A stretch of DNA of 64,000 bases. Source: Alistipes sp. (GTDB lineage Bacteria > Bacteroidota > Bacteroidia > Bacteroidales > Rikenellaceae). The stretch lies in the NCBI GenBank assembly GCA_017547175.1, contig JAFYQI010000006.1, positions 186,001 to 250,000 on the forward strand. Direction: 5' to 3'. The translations under genes were made by a program, and so were the position numbers. Under the pieces are notes generated by a model. That model worked only from the letters and a program-made list of their open reading frames with translations, ran no database searches and had not been told where the DNA came from. Positions 4,748 to 13,954 of this stretch are shown here, in pieces (position 1 is the stretch's first letter; every line of letters begins with the position of its first letter).

Positions 4748-4755
4748 TATATTTG
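4748..4755 (+). promoter_or_regulatory. -7 box of the outer-membrane protein gene
   Basis: TATATTTG about 40 bases ahead of the ATG at 4795. No clear TTTG at the expected -33 spacing. Confidence 0.5.
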
Positions 4756-4794
4756 TAAACGGCTCTATCTGTTTAAGGCTTAAACCGATCTGAT

Positions 4795-5451
4795 ATGATG
4801 AAGAAATTGCTTGCTTGCTGGGGGTTGGTGCTGTTGGTGTTGCCCGTTGGGGCGCAAACGCTGAGGATGCAACACGAGGCGGAGTTGGAGGCGACGCCAC
4901 AAAAGCGCGTGGAATTTGTAGCCCGCCTGAGTTATTTCTTTCCCGACTATGGCTATGGGCCGATGCCCTATTTAGTGACTCAGGAGGGGAAATACAAGAA
5001 CCACTTTACGGTGGGTGCGGGATTCGAGAGCGATATCTATTTCCATAAGCAGTGGTATGCCGGTGTGGGCGCGGAGGTGATCCAGTCCAGTGGCACCTAC
5101 AAGCATATGACCCCTGCGGGCGAGGCGCACCGAAAATCGTTGCGCACGGCTTTGGCTGTGCCGGCTTTGGTGGGTTATAATTGGGAGATGGAGGAGAATA
5201 TCTACATGATTCCCTCAACGGGTTTTGCGTTTAATTATATCTTTGCCGGTAGCGATAAGTTGAGCGATGCACAAGGACGAGAGCATAGCGTGAAACTGCA
5301 TGATTTGGAGGATATTGATCGTGTGGGTTGGTTCTGGGTCCTGAACCTGGACCTGCAAATTGAAAGGATGTCGTTGGGTTTTCAGTTCTCCCTCGCTTTG
5401 GATGCTTCGACGCCCGATTATGCGGCTATACGTGTCGGCTGGAGATTCTAA
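4795..5451 (+). CDS. Secreted protein, probable outer-membrane beta-barrel
   Basis: About 218 residues with an N-terminal signal peptide (MMKKLLACWGLVLLVLPVGAQ, cleavage probably after GAQ). The mature part has alternating aromatic and hydrophobic strands separated by polar turns and ends in a terminal aromatic residue (final F in GWRF), as is usual for outer-membrane barrels. I recognise no specific family. Two ATGs in a row at 4795 and 4798 make the exact start uncertain by one residue. It has its own -7 box and is followed by a strong bidirectional terminator shared with mscL. Confidence 0.65.
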   Translation: MMKKLLACWGLVLLVLPVGAQTLRMQHEAELEATPQKRVEFVARLSYFFPDYGYGPMPYLVTQEGKYKNHFTVGAGFESDIYFHKQWYAGVGAEVIQSSGTYKHMTPAGEAHRKSLRTALAVPALVGYNWEMEENIYMIPSTGFAFNYIFAGSDKLSDAQGREHSVKLHDLEDIDRVGWFWVLNLDLQIERMSLGFQFSLALDASTPDYAAIRVGWRF

Positions 5452-6006: not shown

Positions 6007-7869
6007 TTACTCAACCTCGATCAGGATTGTGTTGGTCTGCACCGAGTCACCTACAGCTACCAGAATCTGCTTTACGGTACCCGAGTAGTCACTCTCGATC
6101 GTGTTCTCCATCTTCATCGCCTCGAGCGTCATGACCTCCTGGCCGGCCTTTACCTTGTCGCCAACCGAAACCTTGATATCGATCACGCGACCCGGCAGGG
6201 GCGAGATGACCGTATTACCCGTGATGGGCTGCGTCTTCTTCTCCTCCACGGCGGGAGCAGCCTCGATAACGGGCTGCGGCTCGGCAGCCTTCTTTGCCTC
6301 GTAAGCCTGCTTCTTGATCATCGTCAGGTAGTTCTTTGCCACGAGCGGGAAGAGCTCGAGCAACAGTACCTCCTTCTCGTTCTCGGCCAGCTTCACGCCA
6401 CCGGCCTCGGCCAATTCGGGGTTGGGTTGCATCTGATACTTCGACGTATCGTAGGGGGTCTCCTCACGTACGCCGCAAATCTTGAAGCGGAATTCGGGAT
6501 CAATCTCCACGGGCGTCTTGCCATACTCACCCTTCACGAGGCCTACAAACTGTGAACTCTTGTTCGTATACATCGGGCGACCGGCCTTCTCGTCCATAGC
6601 GCAGTTTACGGCCTGAGCACCTACGATCTGCGAAGTGGGCGTTACCAAGGGGGGCAGACCAGCTGCGAGACGCACCGAGGGGATGAGCTCCATGGCGCGG
6701 GGCAGAATCTCTTCGGCCTTGAGCTGCTTGAGCTGAGCCACCATGTTCGAGTACATACCACCCGGAATCTCGGCCTTCTGTACCAACTCATCGGGAGCGG
6801 GGAAGCCAAAGTGGGCCTCAATTTTGCGGCAAGCGTCAATGCAGGTCTGCTCGTCGTCCTCCTCAGCGGCCTTAATGGCCTTGTCGAACAGGGCGTCAAT
6901 CTCGGCAGGAAGCTTGTCGGTTACGGGGTTGAAGTAGGTCGGCTCGGGCTTCTCGGTGCCAAATACCGACTGGTTCAGCTCCTTGCGGATAGCCTTCAGC
7001 TCGGCGTTGATCTTGGCTACAGCCTCCATGTTTACACCGTGGTCGATGCCCAGCTTCTTGCAGACTACATCAATGAGCTCGATAGCCGGAGCACCCGTAC
7101 CACCAGCGAAGTACCAGCAGTTGGTATCTACGACATCCACGCCGGCCACGATAGCGGCCAATACCGAAGCCAGACCATAACCCGGCGTACAATGCGTGTG
7201 GAAGTCAACCGGAATCGAGATGTTCTTCTTCAGCAGCTTCACGAGCGTAGCCACGCGACGCGGCGGAATCAGACCCGACATATCCTTAATGGTGATCATG
7301 TCGGCACCCAGAGCGGCCATCTGCTGCGCTTTGTCAAGGAAGTAGGCGTCGGTAAAGACCTGCTGGGGCTTTTTCTTACCCAATAACTTCTGGAAGAACG
7401 ACGGTTCGGGATACTTCGGATCGACCGTGTAGCAAACAGCACAGTCGGCGATACCGCCATACTGTTTTACATATTTGATGGTCGATTTTACGTTATTTAC
7501 GTCATTCAAGGCGTCGAAGATACGCATGATACCCAGACCACTCTGGATGGCGTTGCGGCAGAAACCATCGATGATTTCATCCGTATAGGGGGCATATCCG
7601 AAGAGGTTGCGACCGCGCGAAAGAGCCGTCAGTTTCGAAACTTCACCAACAACTGCATGGATCGATTCCAGGCGTGTCCAGGGGTTTTCGTTCAGGTAAC
7701 GCATTACCGAGTCGGGTACGGCGCCACCCCAAACTTCCATTGCATAAAAGTTAGCATCTTTGTAGTAGGAGAGACAGCGGTTGATCTGCTCCTGTTTCAT
7801 GCGCGTGGCAAACGAAGACTGTTGTCCGTCGCGCAACGTGAGATCTCTGATTTTGAGTACTCTTGCCAT
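6007..7869 (-). CDS. oadA: Carboxyltransferase-biotin carrier protein (OadA / PycB type)
   Basis: A protein of 620 residues with three parts. The HMG-lyase-like TIM barrel (about 1-300) starts LKIRDLTLRDGQQSSFATRM, with the catalytic-metal region DFHTHCTPG. Then comes the conserved carboxylase domain (about 300-470). Last is a C-terminal biotinyl domain with EAMKM, biotinylated Lys at 586. It can be the alpha subunit of a membrane oxaloacetate decarboxylase or the B subunit of a two-subunit pyruvate carboxylase. The beta and gamma pump subunits and the biotin carboxylase are not in this window. Own promoter upstream; mscL follows. The precise complex cannot be settled here. Confidence 0.88.
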   Translation of the reverse strand: MARVLKIRDLTLRDGQQSSFATRMKQEQINRCLSYYKDANFYAMEVWGGAVPDSVMRYLNENPWTRLESIHAVVGEVSKLTALSRGRNLFGYAPYTDEIIDGFCRNAIQSGLGIMRIFDALNDVNNVKSTIKYVKQYGGIADCAVCYTVDPKYPEPSFFQKLLGKKKPQQVFTDAYFLDKAQQMAALGADMITIKDMSGLIPPRRVATLVKLLKKNISIPVDFHTHCTPGYGLASVLAAIVAGVDVVDTNCWYFAGGTGAPAIELIDVVCKKLGIDHGVNMEAVAKINAELKAIRKELNQSVFGTEKPEPTYFNPVTDKLPAEIDALFDKAIKAAEEDDEQTCIDACRKIEAHFGFPAPDELVQKAEIPGGMYSNMVAQLKQLKAEEILPRAMELIPSVRLAAGLPPLVTPTSQIVGAQAVNCAMDEKAGRPMYTNKSSQFVGLVKGEYGKTPVEIDPEFRFKICGVREETPYDTSKYQMQPNPELAEAGGVKLAENEKEVLLLELFPLVAKNYLTMIKKQAYEAKKAAEPQPVIEAAPAVEEKKTQPITGNTVISPLPGRVIDIKVSVGDKVKAGQEVMTLEAMKMENTIESDYSGTVKQILVAVGDSVQTNTILIEVE

Positions 7870-9874: not shown

Positions 9875-10675
9875 ATGAGCGCATCGAAGCAAAAATATGC
9901 CCTTGTAACGGGTGCAGCCTCGGGAATGGGGCGAAGCTATGCCTGTCAGCTCGCCTGTATGGGGTATGGGGTGGTGGCTGTAGATCGTGATGAGGCTGCC
10001 CTGCAGCGCTTGATGAAAGAGTTAACGGCGTGCAGTCAAGCCGCGCATCGGGCTCTTGTGCTTGATTTGTCGCTGGTGGATGCCGCCGAACAACTGATGG
10101 CGCAACTTGCGCATATCGAATCGGATATCGAAGTGCTGATTTGTAATGCGGGAGTGTTGGCTTTTGGCGGTTTTAGTGCGCTGACCGAGGAGCGCATAGC
10201 AACTGTGATCTCCTTGCATATAACCACTCATACGAAGCTGATACATCGCATCGGTACGATGATGCGCAGTCACTCGCGAGGCTATATTTTGTGGGTTTCG
10301 TCAGCTACTGCCTGGATGGCCTATCCGTCGATTGCGCTGTATGCTGCTACAAAAAACTTTGTAAAGATGCTCTCTGAAGCGCTGCACGATGAATGGGCGC
10401 AAGATGGCGTGGTGGTGACGGTTGTCTGCCCGGGCGCGGTCGATACTCCCTTCTATCGTCTTGATAAACGCATGCGCGGTTGGCTGTTGCGTATGGGTGT
10501 CATGCTGACACCTGACGAAGTGGCTCGGAGGGCTTTGCGTGCGCTCTTCAAGGGACGCAAACGGCTGCTGCCCGGGTTGGCTGCTAAGGGGATGGCCTTG
10601 GCAGGGTGGTTTCTTCCCTCGTGGTTGATTCGTCGCGTGGTGCGTATCGAACGGGTGCGACGCCTATTGATGTAA
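9875..10675 (+). CDS. Short-chain dehydrogenase/reductase (SDR)
   Basis: NAD(P)-dependent oxidoreductase of 266 residues. The Rossmann cofactor motif TGAASGMG is at about residues 12-19, NAG at about 90, catalytic Ser in WVSSA, and the YAATK catalytic Tyr-Lys pair near residues 153-157. The last 40 residues are hydrophobic then basic (GMALAGWFLPSWLIRRVVRIERVRR), which may attach the protein to the membrane, as in some lipid-acting SDRs of the DltE-like group. Substrate unknown. It overlaps the convergent HAD gene by 12 bases. Confidence 0.85.
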   Translation: MSASKQKYALVTGAASGMGRSYACQLACMGYGVVAVDRDEAALQRLMKELTACSQAAHRALVLDLSLVDAAEQLMAQLAHIESDIEVLICNAGVLAFGGFSALTEERIATVISLHITTHTKLIHRIGTMMRSHSRGYILWVSSATAWMAYPSIALYAATKNFVKMLSEALHDEWAQDGVVVTVVCPGAVDTPFYRLDKRMRGWLLRMGVMLTPDEVARRALRALFKGRKRLLPGLAAKGMALAGWFLPSWLIRRVVRIERVRRLLM

Positions 10676-11338
10676 GACTCTCGATAGGTCGATTTCTGTG
10701 AAATCTTCAACGACGATATCGGCCAAATTATCGGCCAAAATTTGTGCTTTTGTAAGTGTGGTTGCAATACCGACTACAAGCCCTGCTCCGGCCCTTCTGG
10801 CGGCCTCAAATCCTGCTCGAGCATCTTCGAAGATAATGCACTCCTCAATCTTGATGCCCAACTCTTTGGCTGCAGTTATATAAATCTCAGGATCAGGTTT
10901 GCATCGCGCTACCATATCGCCAGAAATCTGCACGTCGAAAAAGGCCTCTATTTTACATTTGGAAAGGACAAAATTAACATTGTCGCGACATCCCGATGAG
11001 CCAACAGCGCAACGTATGCCGGCTTGATGTAGCTGCTCTAACAGGGCCCTCAAACCGGTGATCGGTTGAATCGTCGGCGCATAGATTTCGCGGTAAATCT
11101 GCTCCTTTTCGTCGCCCAAAGCCTTGAGTCCCTTGTTGCGAATGACCACCTCGGGCAGCAGCATGCGCATAATATCGTCCGATCCCATGCCAAAGGCGTT
11201 GCTGAGTCTTGACTCCCAATCGGTTACGCCGTATCTGTCGCAAAAAAATCTGAAGGCTTGAACGTGTATGTCCGAATTGTCGACTAGCGTGCCGTCCATG
11301 TCAAACAGTGCGGCGCGAAACGGGATGGTTGGCTTCAT
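10664..11338 (-). CDS. HAD-superfamily hydrolase, beta-phosphoglucomutase-like
   Basis: Protein of 224 residues with the HAD motifs in order. DMDGTLVDN near residue 14 has the nucleophile and acid/base Asp residues, GSSG near 115 is motif II, a Lys in the CKPDP stretch is motif III, and the FEDA stretch is motif IV. The cap lies between motifs I and II, as in beta-phosphoglucomutase and sugar-phosphatases. Which phosphate ester it acts on cannot be read. Its promoter lies inside the first copy of a 247-bp repeat that begins 6 bases before the start codon. The HAD gene ends convergently with the SDR gene. Confidence 0.85.
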   Translation of the reverse strand: MKPTIPFRAALFDMDGTLVDNSDIHVQAFRFFCDRYGVTDWESRLSNAFGMGSDDIMRMLLPEVVIRNKGLKALGDEKEQIYREIYAPTIQPITGLRALLEQLHQAGIRCAVGSSGCRDNVNFVLSKCKIEAFFDVQISGDMVARCKPDPEIYITAAKELGIKIEECIIFEDARAGFEAARRAGAGLVVGIATTLTKAQILADNLADIVVEDFTEIDLSRVLHQ

Positions 11339-11344
11339 GGTGTG

Positions 11345-11591
11345 AAAATATTTAATTAATATGCTAAGGTGTACAATACACTCTCACCCAGCATCCCACA
11401 AAGATACCAATCATTCCAATAATATCCAAATGCTTGTTAAATAATTTAACTTGGTGATTTATAGGGAATTAGAGAGATTGCTTTTCAATAATGAGAATCT
11501 TCCGTAAAGTCCCTAATGCGCATAGAGGAATGGTTACCAATCAGTTAGATTATTTTAGTGTTCACCTGTGATATATTAACTAAATATTCTG
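11345..11591. repeat. 247-bp direct repeat, copy 1 (carries HAD promoter)
   Basis: AT-rich unit matching 12761-13007 almost base for base with a handful of substitutions and two single-base indels. It begins 6 bases before the HAD start codon and contains the HAD-gene promoter on the minus strand. It ends at AACTAAATATTCTG. No ORF, no tRNA and no terminal inverted repeat is seen in it. Together with copy 2 it frames the sulfite-exporter-family gene. Confidence 0.9.
11399..11430 (-). promoter_or_regulatory. Promoter of the HAD hydrolase gene
   Basis: Minus strand TTTG (11427-11430), 20-base gap, TATCTTTG (11399-11406). The predicted leader is about 55 bases. The same -7 box exists in repeat copy 2 (12815-12822), where it points at the 3' end of the permease gene. 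Confidence 0.7.
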
Positions 11592-11635
11592 CTTGAATTT
11601 TTCATATCTTTGCCTAACTAAACCTGGATACACAA

Positions 11636-11737
11636 TGGCAGAAAAGGCCTATTTTACCTACCATGTCGAGCCCCAGTCGCTCGACTTCAATTCGCGCCGA
11701 TCGATCGTGCGACAGCAAAAGCAGCCGTCGATCTAAC
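11636..11737 (+). pseudogene. Possible N-terminal remnant of an acyl-ACP thioesterase-like gene
   Basis: A 33-codon frame with ATG, preceded by a -7 box TATCTTTG (11605-11612). Its first 20 or so residues (MAEKAYFTYHVEPQSLDF) look to me like the start of Bacteroidota acyl-ACP thioesterases; after that it turns basic and stops. The likely reading is a gene start left behind by a deletion. The resemblance is from memory and short, so confidence is low. The rest of 11738-11840 holds no recognisable feature. Confidence 0.3.
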
Positions 11738-11842
11738 GACAAGGATAATCAAAAATCCCGAATGGCGGCACGATTTCATTGTTTTTCAATAAAAGAGGGT
11801 GCATCCCACCGTATTATCCCCCAATCACCCATGTACACCGAT

Positions 11843-11873
11843 TTTGGCATTCGAGAAATTAGGCCTATTTTTG
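11843..11873 (+). promoter_or_regulatory. Promoter of the sulfite-exporter-family gene
   Basis: TTTG (11843-11846), 19-base gap, TATTTTTG (11866-11873); ATG follows about 28 bases later. Confidence 0.72.
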
Positions 11874-11901
11874 TGCTCTAAAGATTGATATTGGGCAGAC
11901 G

Positions 11902-12645
11902 ATGATCGAATTATTGACTACATTTCAGTGGGTTATTCTGGTGCTTACGGCGCTTTGTATCGGCATGTCGAAGACGGGCGTGCAGGGCTTGATGCTGCTC
12001 GCCGTCCCCTATATGGCGATGGCTTTCGGTGCGAAGGCCTCTACGGGTGTTATCCTGCCGATGCTCTGTATGGCGGACATCATTGCCGTGGTCTATTACA
12101 AGCGCATTGCTGACTGGAAGGTGGTCGCGAAACTGCTTCCTACGGCCATCCTCGGATTTTTTGTAGCCATCTTTGTCGATCGGTTGATCCCCGCGAACGA
12201 ATTCCGCCAACTTATGGGCTGGACGCTGGCGTTGGTCTTGGTCGTGATGGCCTGGAGCGAACTCTTTGGGAAGGAGAATCGATGGATGAAGCGGTGGTGG
12301 TACTCCGCGCTGTTTGGCCTGCTCGGAGGCTTTACTACGATGATTGGCAATGCCGCAGGGCCGGTGATGTCGATCTATTTGCTCTCGATGCGCAAGGGTA
12401 AGATGGAGTATATCGGCATCAATGCCTGGTTTTTCTTGGTGGTGAACCTGCTGAAAGTACCCCTGCAAATTTTTGTCTGGGAGAATATCTCGTGGGATAC
12501 CTTCTCGCTCAACCTGCTGATGCTGCCCATCATCGCTCTGGGTGCTTGGCTGGGTATTTCGATCATTAAATTATTCCCCGAAAAGGCCTTCCGCCGCTTT
12601 ATTCAGTTGGTTACCATGCTGTCGGTGGCGATGATGTTCTGCTAA
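11902..12645 (+). CDS. Sulfite exporter TauE/SafE family (TSUP) permease
   Basis: Inner-membrane protein of 247 residues with about eight helices. It has the two-fold TSUP arrangement: an N-terminal CIGMSKTGVQGLMLLAVPYMA segment and a second-half GGFTTMIGNAAGPVMSIYLLS segment, the two family hallmarks. Members export small sulfur or carbon anions (sulfite, sulfoacetate, sometimes others); the substrate is not readable. The gene has its own promoter and terminator and forms a self-contained unit between two 247-bp direct repeats. This suggests it was added between the HAD gene and the transketolase operon by a recombination event. Confidence 0.9.
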   Translation: MIELLTTFQWVILVLTALCIGMSKTGVQGLMLLAVPYMAMAFGAKASTGVILPMLCMADIIAVVYYKRIADWKVVAKLLPTAILGFFVAIFVDRLIPANEFRQLMGWTLALVLVVMAWSELFGKENRWMKRWWYSALFGLLGGFTTMIGNAAGPVMSIYLLSMRKGKMEYIGINAWFFLVVNLLKVPLQIFVWENISWDTFSLNLLMLPIIALGAWLGISIIKLFPEKAFRRFIQLVTMLSVAMMFC

Positions 12646-12697
12646 TGATCGCTGCACCCAATCAACCATTTCAGGATTGGGAGAATTGGAAAAAAAT

Positions 12698-12737
12698 GCG
12701 AGATAGCCCAGATGGACTATCTCGCTTGCGTTTTTTT
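12698..12737 (+). terminator. Terminator of the TSUP gene
   Basis: Stem GCGAGATAG (12698-12706) / CTATCTCGC (12717-12725), 10-base loop, T7 run at 12731-12737. Confidence 0.82.
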
Positions 12738-12760
12738 AGTTAAAATATCGAAGGTATAAC

Positions 12761-13007
12761 AAAATATTAAATTAATATGCTCAAGGTGTACAATAACTCT
12801 CACCCAGCACCCCACAAAGATACCAATCATTCCAATAATATCAAAATGTGTGTTAAATAATTTAACTTGGTGATTTATAGAGAATTACAAAGATTGCTTT
12901 TCAATAATGAGAATCTTCCGTAAAGTCCCTAATACCCATAGAGGAATGGTTACCAATAAGTTAGATTATTTTAGTGTTCACCTGTGATATATTAACTAAA
13001 TATTTTG
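12761..13007. repeat. 247-bp direct repeat, copy 2
   Basis: Same orientation as copy 1 (11345-11591). Here the left end follows the TSUP terminator and the right end lies about 50 bases before the transketolase promoter. The minus-strand TATCTTTG box is intact, so an orphan promoter would read leftward, antisense to the end of the TSUP gene. The stretch 12646-13123 otherwise holds only the terminator and the transketolase promoter. Confidence 0.9.
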
Positions 13008-13054
13008 TTTTATGCGCAAAAGTACTACTTTTTGACGAAATCTGCGCCGTTGAT

Positions 13055-13123: not shown

Positions 13124-13954
13124 ATGCAAACAAAAGAACTGATGTTGCAGGCCGAGAAAAACCGCAAGCGTCTGGTCGAAATTGTCCAGATTGCCAAGGC
13201 CGGCCATATCGGCGGTGGTCTCTCGTCGATGAATATGCTGACGGCACTCTATTTCGAGGTCATGAAACTCGATCCGCAGAATCCGAAGTGGGAGGATCGC
13301 GACCGTTTTGTGATGAGTAAGGGTCACTGCGTCGAGGCGCTCTATAGTGTGCTCGAAAATCGTGGCTTCATTACGAAGGAGCTGACCGATACCTACGGAC
13401 AGTTCGATACGCCGCTGGCCGGTCACCCGACGATCGAGGTGCCGGGCATCGAGGTAAACAGCGGTGCATTGGGTCATGGCCTGCCGATTGGCGTGGGTAT
13501 GGCTATTGCCGCCAAGATGGATAAGAAGAGCTGGAAGACCTACGTCCTGATGGGCGATGGTGAGCAGGGTGAGGGTTCGATCTATGAGGCTGCCATGGCC
13601 GGTAGTCACTATAAGCTCGACAATCTGGTGGCCATCATCGACCGCAATGGTCTGCAGATCAGCGATACGACTGAGAATGTGATGGCTCTCGAGCCGATTG
13701 CGGCACGTTGGTCGGCCTTCGGCTGGGATGTGCAGGAGATCAACGGCGACAGCATGGAGGAGATTGTAGCTGCCTTCGAGAAGATCGATTACAACTGTGG
13801 TAAACCCCACCTGATCGTTTCGCGCACGACGAAGGGTAACGGTGTGAAGCTGATGGAGAATATCCTCAAGTGGCACCACGGCGTTCCGACGCAGGAGGAG
13901 TATGAGGCTGCGATTGCTGAGATCGAGGCCCGCATCGAGTCATTAACAAAATAA
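13124..13954 (+). CDS. Transketolase-like enzyme, N-terminal (TPP-binding) subunit
   Basis: Subunit of 276 residues forming the thiamine-diphosphate pyrophosphate-binding half of a two-subunit transketolase. It has the GHIGGGLSS start of the domain, then a GDGEQGEGSIYEA stretch and NRNG (GDG-X-N thiamine motif, about residues 144-173). The matching C-terminal half is the next gene, 14 bases on. Split transketolases occur in general pentose metabolism and also in the D-apiose route (AptA/AptB). Here the pair opens an operon with a kinase and a sugar isomerase, so a dedicated catabolic role is more likely than housekeeping. The upstream in-frame ATG at 12974 is rejected. Confidence 0.85.
   Translation: MQTKELMLQAEKNRKRLVEIVQIAKAGHIGGGLSSMNMLTALYFEVMKLDPQNPKWEDRDRFVMSKGHCVEALYSVLENRGFITKELTDTYGQFDTPLAGHPTIEVPGIEVNSGALGHGLPIGVGMAIAAKMDKKSWKTYVLMGDGEQGEGSIYEAAMAGSHYKLDNLVAIIDRNGLQISDTTENVMALEPIAARWSAFGWDVQEINGDSMEEIVAAFEKIDYNCGKPHLIVSRTTKGNGVKLMENILKWHHGVPTQEEYEAAIAEIEARIESLTK

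Follow-up and report, generated by a model that had tools for sequence, protein, structure and literature searches.

The segment 11346-13005 of the window, by which we mean the whole 64,000-nucleotide stretch of Alistipes DNA that was analysed, is probably a mobile cassette in which two direct, non-coding units enclose a foreign permease gene, a circle having been joined replicatively to the chromosome by a DDE transposase. BLAST bore out the first-pass annotation of two near-identical repeats in the same orientation (11345-11591 and 12761-13007, 94% over 247 bp) with a single permease gene of the TauE/SafE type between them. The 247-bp bounds, however, include 8-bp flanks, and the refined units, W1 and W2, are 228 bp long each and 95.6% identical (Table 1). 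Their ends are imperfect inverted repeats of about 25 bp, AATTAATATGCTCAAGGTGTACA on one side and, read inwards from the other, AGTTAATATATCACAGGTGAACA. The gene whose truncated start follows unit 1 is presumably, from recognition of its sequence, an acyl-ACP thioesterase. The fragment preceding unit 2 belongs to a second unit subfamily, full units of which are present at L019 3215-3422 and 5692-5899; such a fragment also precedes the unit at L021 8083. Rfam analysis of the window region and eight cassette loci returned only tRNAs.

Table 1. Features of the permease cassette and of its chromosomal neighbourhood, in window positions
Feature	Position	Strand	Remarks
Left neighbour: HAD-family hydrolase	10664-11338	-	PF13419
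Outer target duplication, left copy	11346-11353		AAATATTT; repeated at 12998-13005; single site in relatives
MITE-like unit 1 (W1)	11354-11581	+	228 bp; ends AATTAATATGCTAAGGTGTACA / TGTTCACCTGTGATATATTAACT
Inner flank S of unit 1	11582-11589		AAATATTC; 7/8 bp match with 12762-12769
-7 promoter-like box of the captured thioesterase gene start	11605-11612	+	TATCTTTG, read from sequence; homologous to L171 2484-2588
Truncated gene start, acyl-ACP thioesterase-like	11635-11698	+	MAEKAYFTYHVEPQSLDFNSR...; 91% to G165 L171 2484-2588, where the frame continues
Cargo junction, joining the permuted G165 order	11691-11698		TTCGCGCC; L171 1501-1508 (TTCACGCC) and 2581-2588 (TTCGCGCC)
Cargo: TSUP/TauE-SafE-type permease, 247 aa	11902-12645	+	PF01925, E 4.9e-26
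Terminator-like hairpin and T run 3' of the permease	12698-12734	+	inverted repeat 12698-12710/12713-12725
End fragment of second unit subfamily	12738-12769	+	AGTTAAAATATCGAAGGTATAACAAAATATTA; truncated by unit 2; final 8 bp are the inner flank S
MITE-like unit 2 (W2)	12770-12997	+	228 bp
Outer target duplication, right copy	12998-13005		AAATATTT
Conserved -7-like box facing HAD	13017-13024	-	TACTTTTG; aligned with nine empty sites; now 1.68 kb from the HAD start
Right neighbour: transketolase N-terminal subunit	13124-13954	+	PF00456

The repeats belong to a dispersed MITE-like family that is non-coding and has terminal inverted repeats. The window's genome has five clear copies, namely the two in the window, two on contig C12 and a fifth on C1, where the array also holds diverged copies. 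End-sequence matches were obtained in 40 of 180 genus genomes, against zero for a reversed-pattern control among the matches listed, and the exact 22-base left end, searched for in 84,980 species genomes, was found only in MAGs titled Alistipes or Rikenellaceae and in one titled Bacteroides sp. Strong unit matches among 384 genomes of the order were confined to the window's own genome, and the repeat had no match in phages and plasmids (blastn) or in viral contigs (exact 21-mer). Unit ends are conserved over a length range of 72-258 bp, and the units fold as imperfect hairpins (z about -3 to -4.6).

High-scoring transketolase orthologues were detected in 10 of the 180 genus genomes. In the nine relatives besides G000, the HAD and transketolase genes are adjacent, with no permease and, by profile search, no unit. 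The first-pass annotation had suggested a comparison with related genomes for an arrangement with the repeat but without the permease; relatives lacking the permease exist, but the repeat is absent from them too. The reading of copy 1 as the natural promoter of the HAD gene, and of copy 2 as a duplicate of that promoter, is not supported. Window positions 11344 and 13003 map 8 bases apart in the closest relative, G124 (98% transketolase protein identity). A TAnnTTTG-type box facing HAD is conserved in the shared intergenic region and lies beyond unit 2 in the window, which indicates that the insertion displaced it and that unit 1 is not the native HAD promoter. Empty sites are also available for two other loci: AATTTTTT is found at each outer side of the G026 composite and as an exact single copy in the relative G033, and the G199 locus is empty in G149, which has a single TTCTTTTTT run. 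At L095 and L087, the sites are too diverged or repetitive for a duplication to be read.

The 8-bp flanks outside AATTAATAT/ATATTAACT were compared with shuffles, a match being at least 7 of 8 bp; the L019 pairs, whose array has no flank matches, were left out. Of 8 pairs, 6 had matching outer flanks where shuffling gave 1.4 (p 0.0003); for the inner flanks, the figures were 6 of 12 and 0.9 (p<0.0001). No such excess was seen between the left and right flanks of a paired unit (p 0.28 by count, 0.37 by mean). With the C1 array included, the excess persisted, with p 0.001 for outer and p 0.007 for inner flanks. Single 8-bp matches are weak because the flanks are A/T-rich. An 8-bp target duplication accompanies the unit-cargo-unit composites but does not exceed chance for isolated units, many of which lie at contig ends. 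The flank order, T-U-S ... S-U-T (T, outer flank; U, unit; S, inner flank), agrees with that of IS26-type cointegrates, the corresponding T-IS-S ... S-IS-T flanks having been described for a plasmid cointegrate (PMC7986276).

The origin of the cargo could be traced in a genus search with 11590-11905, which matched contig C13 of G165 twice, in swapped order. Window 11691-12645 is 97% identical (922/955) to L171 1501-2455, and window 11595-11699 is 91% identical to L171 2484-2588. The G165 locus is a normal chromosomal context, the permease being followed by the promoter and start of a thioesterase-like gene, with no units. As the transketolase loci of the window and G165 are only 82% identical, compared with 97% for the cargo, the latter is foreign and moved between species. 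The cargo thus corresponds to this G165 region closed on itself at an 8-bp repeat (the cargo junction of Table 1) and opened again in the gap between permease and thioesterase gene that the units now occupy, and this circular permutation implies passage through a circle or a tandem duplication. The first-pass annotation had proposed either capture of a circular segment or a duplication: the permuted cargo supports capture through a circle or an equivalent duplication, but a local duplication is unsupported, as the unit belongs to a dispersed family with three clear copies elsewhere in the genome, dispersed copies being what the annotation itself had named as refuting evidence. Looping out of the permease between the repeats, also raised there, is possible.

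The arrangement is not restricted to the permease. Fifteen neighbouring unit pairs, less than 5 kb apart, enclose a single gene or a small operon, and 14 of them are in direct orientation (sign test on 13/14, p 0.002), the sole inverted pair being that of G199. Besides the permease, the cargo comprises two different GNAT acetyltransferases, a CAT-like acetyltransferase, a BlaI-like/BlaR1 pair (BlaR1: PF05569), a Sel1/CsgG-like trio, and genes that we take, by sequence recognition, to encode glycoside hydrolase-like proteins and lipoproteins. One GNAT cassette is shared by G112 and G138 and the other by G199 and G033, in each case at different loci and with about 99% identity. In the former the identity starts on the left at the unit boundary; in the latter it runs nearly to the unit boundary, and the unit types differ. 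Both identities were read from alignments, in a set of one genome per species. Paired units match each other best in 4 of the 7 pairs (W1/W2, G026, G112 e/f and G062 c/d), and those of G062 c/d are 99% identical and have a private internal deletion in common. The members of the C12 pair are not each other's best match, and the G029 and G199 pairs combine different unit subfamilies with 55-59% identity. The L095 cassette has a fusion of the type seen in the permease cargo, in which a 5' gene start after unit 1 continues in frame as the 3' end of a band-7-like gene; it could be traced to no single donor locus. The homologue search for the L018 and L020 cargo returned mainly a dispersed repeat of about 220 bp and no clear donor.

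The best-supported explanation is a DDE-transposase reaction that makes 8-bp duplications, most simply a replicative cointegrate from a unit-bearing circle. In the donor, a unit would have separated the permease from the adjacent thioesterase gene, and recombination at the short repeat TTCRCGCC would have generated a circle or a tandem duplication. A DDE transposase acting in trans would then have joined the unit-bearing circle replicatively to the HAD-transketolase site, as in IS26-type cointegrates, producing T-U-S-cargo-S-U-T in a single step. Against the cointegrate reading, the mixed-subfamily pairs of G029 and G199 are not yielded by one-step replication of a single unit. No transposase with the unit ends was found in the fetched genus loci, nor by pattern among the 384 genomes of the order; the transposase partner may be diverged or unassembled. 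Transposases of the IS6, IS1595, ISL3 and IS256 types do occur in Alistipes genomes that carry units.

It is also imaginable, though we consider it unlikely, that the region moved as a composite transposon, the donor unit region having been tandemly duplicated at the short repeat to give U-cargo-U and the whole having then moved by its outermost ends with an 8-bp duplication. This would account equally for the permuted cargo, for the inner and outer matches and for the direct orientation, and would make a free circle unnecessary, but it requires a duplication followed by movement of the whole composite, and a duplicated donor locus was not seen. Homologous recombination of a unit-bearing circle with a unit resident between HAD and transketolase, which is near to the first-pass view, seems to us distinctly improbable. 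The direct orientation agrees with it, the outer and inner flank matches would be expected if the resident unit had a target duplication, and W2 groups with the genomic copy C12b (support 0.93). However, the unit-only state was seen in none of the nine relatives at this site, nor at the empty G033 and G149 sites, which makes such capture less likely, and the mixed-subfamily pairs do not provide the homology needed.

We give very little credence to an integron-like origin, in which a tyrosine recombinase would act on folded attC-like units. Integron cassettes share with the Alistipes loci the direct arrays of single-gene cassettes and the repeated sites in one orientation, and the units do form imperfect hairpins, but the loci are many and scattered over the genome, and the 8-bp target duplications at empty sites weaken this reading. 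The units have no attC core motifs, their ends, GTTAATAT...ATATTAAC, corresponding to the reverse of the well-known orientation of attC core sites, and no integrase was seen beside the fetched arrays. Finally, duplication of the HAD promoter region in place, an idea invited by two near-identical copies of which one adjoins HAD, is refuted by the dispersal of the family and by the absence of the unit from the site in nine relatives, and retains practically no probability.

The replicative joining of circles finds a parallel in the IS6/IS26 pseudo-compound transposons and translocatable units, which have in common with the Alistipes cassettes direct repeats around the cargo, 8-bp duplications and circular cargo forms (PMC7986276). 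By this analogy, the cassettes would work like IS26 pseudo-compound transposons, which does not imply membership of the IS6/IS26 family: the Alistipes units are 72-258 bp long and encode no protein, their ends are unlike the short conserved IS6 ends, and no IS6 transposase was detected beside the units or inside them. The cassettes also appear to resemble TIME-COMPs, composites bounded by Tn3-derived miniature elements such as TIME244, of 244 bp, in direct or inverted orientation (PMC13367494, PMC4133298). In both, short non-coding inverted-repeat elements bound single genes, with the composite lying between direct repeats. The flanking repeats of TIME-COMPs are mostly 5 bp, and TIMEs occur mainly on enterobacterial plasmids (PMC13367494, PMC4133298), whereas those described here are 8 bp and the cassettes lie on Alistipes contigs, with none in the plasmid collection. 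Porphyromonas gingivalis, also of the Bacteroidales, has dispersed non-coding elements with inverted repeats in its genome, MITE239, BrickBuilt and MITEPgRS, but these have different ends (GAGAC.../ACGT...), and paired cassettes around cargo are not described in that report (PMC4596501). A limited literature search found no prior description of the Alistipes cassettes.

Sequence comparison alone points to a natural process in which individual genes from the chromosomes of gut commensals would be captured, permuted and moved between species. Among the cargo are acetyltransferases, one gene resembling those for chloramphenicol acetyltransferase, BlaI/BlaR1-type regulators and putative glycoside hydrolases. 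The elements are too small and too non-coding for annotation, and the cassettes are missed by gene-based searches for mobile elements. A wider proposal, which we advance only tentatively and hold to be somewhat doubtful, is that of capture throughout the genus Alistipes, with an orphan miniature element inserting beside genes and leaving with them as circles by means of an unrecognised transposase family. If so, ready-made single-gene cassettes would be dropped into promoter and terminator gaps of other species.

Several minor features of the unit loci were recorded. In G112, G088, G158, G139, G098 and G082, contig ends often lie no more than a few hundred bases from a unit, as would be expected if the repeats break metagenome assemblies; the cassettes probably do so at their ends. 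By eye, a TAnnTTTG-like box often lies about 10-12 bp outside the unit end at many loci and other units come immediately after the T run of a terminator, which suggests that units prefer promoter and terminator gaps. An IS1595-type transposase in G005 (L140 2351-3277) and a GNAT toxin-like gene lie at most 2.4 kb from a unit; inspected by eye, this transposase has no similar ends around it. A sequence of about 220 nt at L018 10340-10560 and L020 about 6618-6890 recurs in roughly 150 of the 180 genus genomes at about 70-85% identity, mostly with one or two matches per genome and no Rfam match, and is possibly an unlisted RNA or repeat family. One promoter-like leader of about 60 bp adjoins units at L099 9702-9770, L100 7832-7900, L101 9101-9168 and L103 8083-8111, where it drives different cargo genes (acetyltransferase, nucleotidyltransferase-like). 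The G138 acetyltransferase cassette is bracketed by a direct duplication of about 97 bp (L130 3716-3812 / 4755-4851), one copy of which extends into the 3' end of an xpt-like gene.
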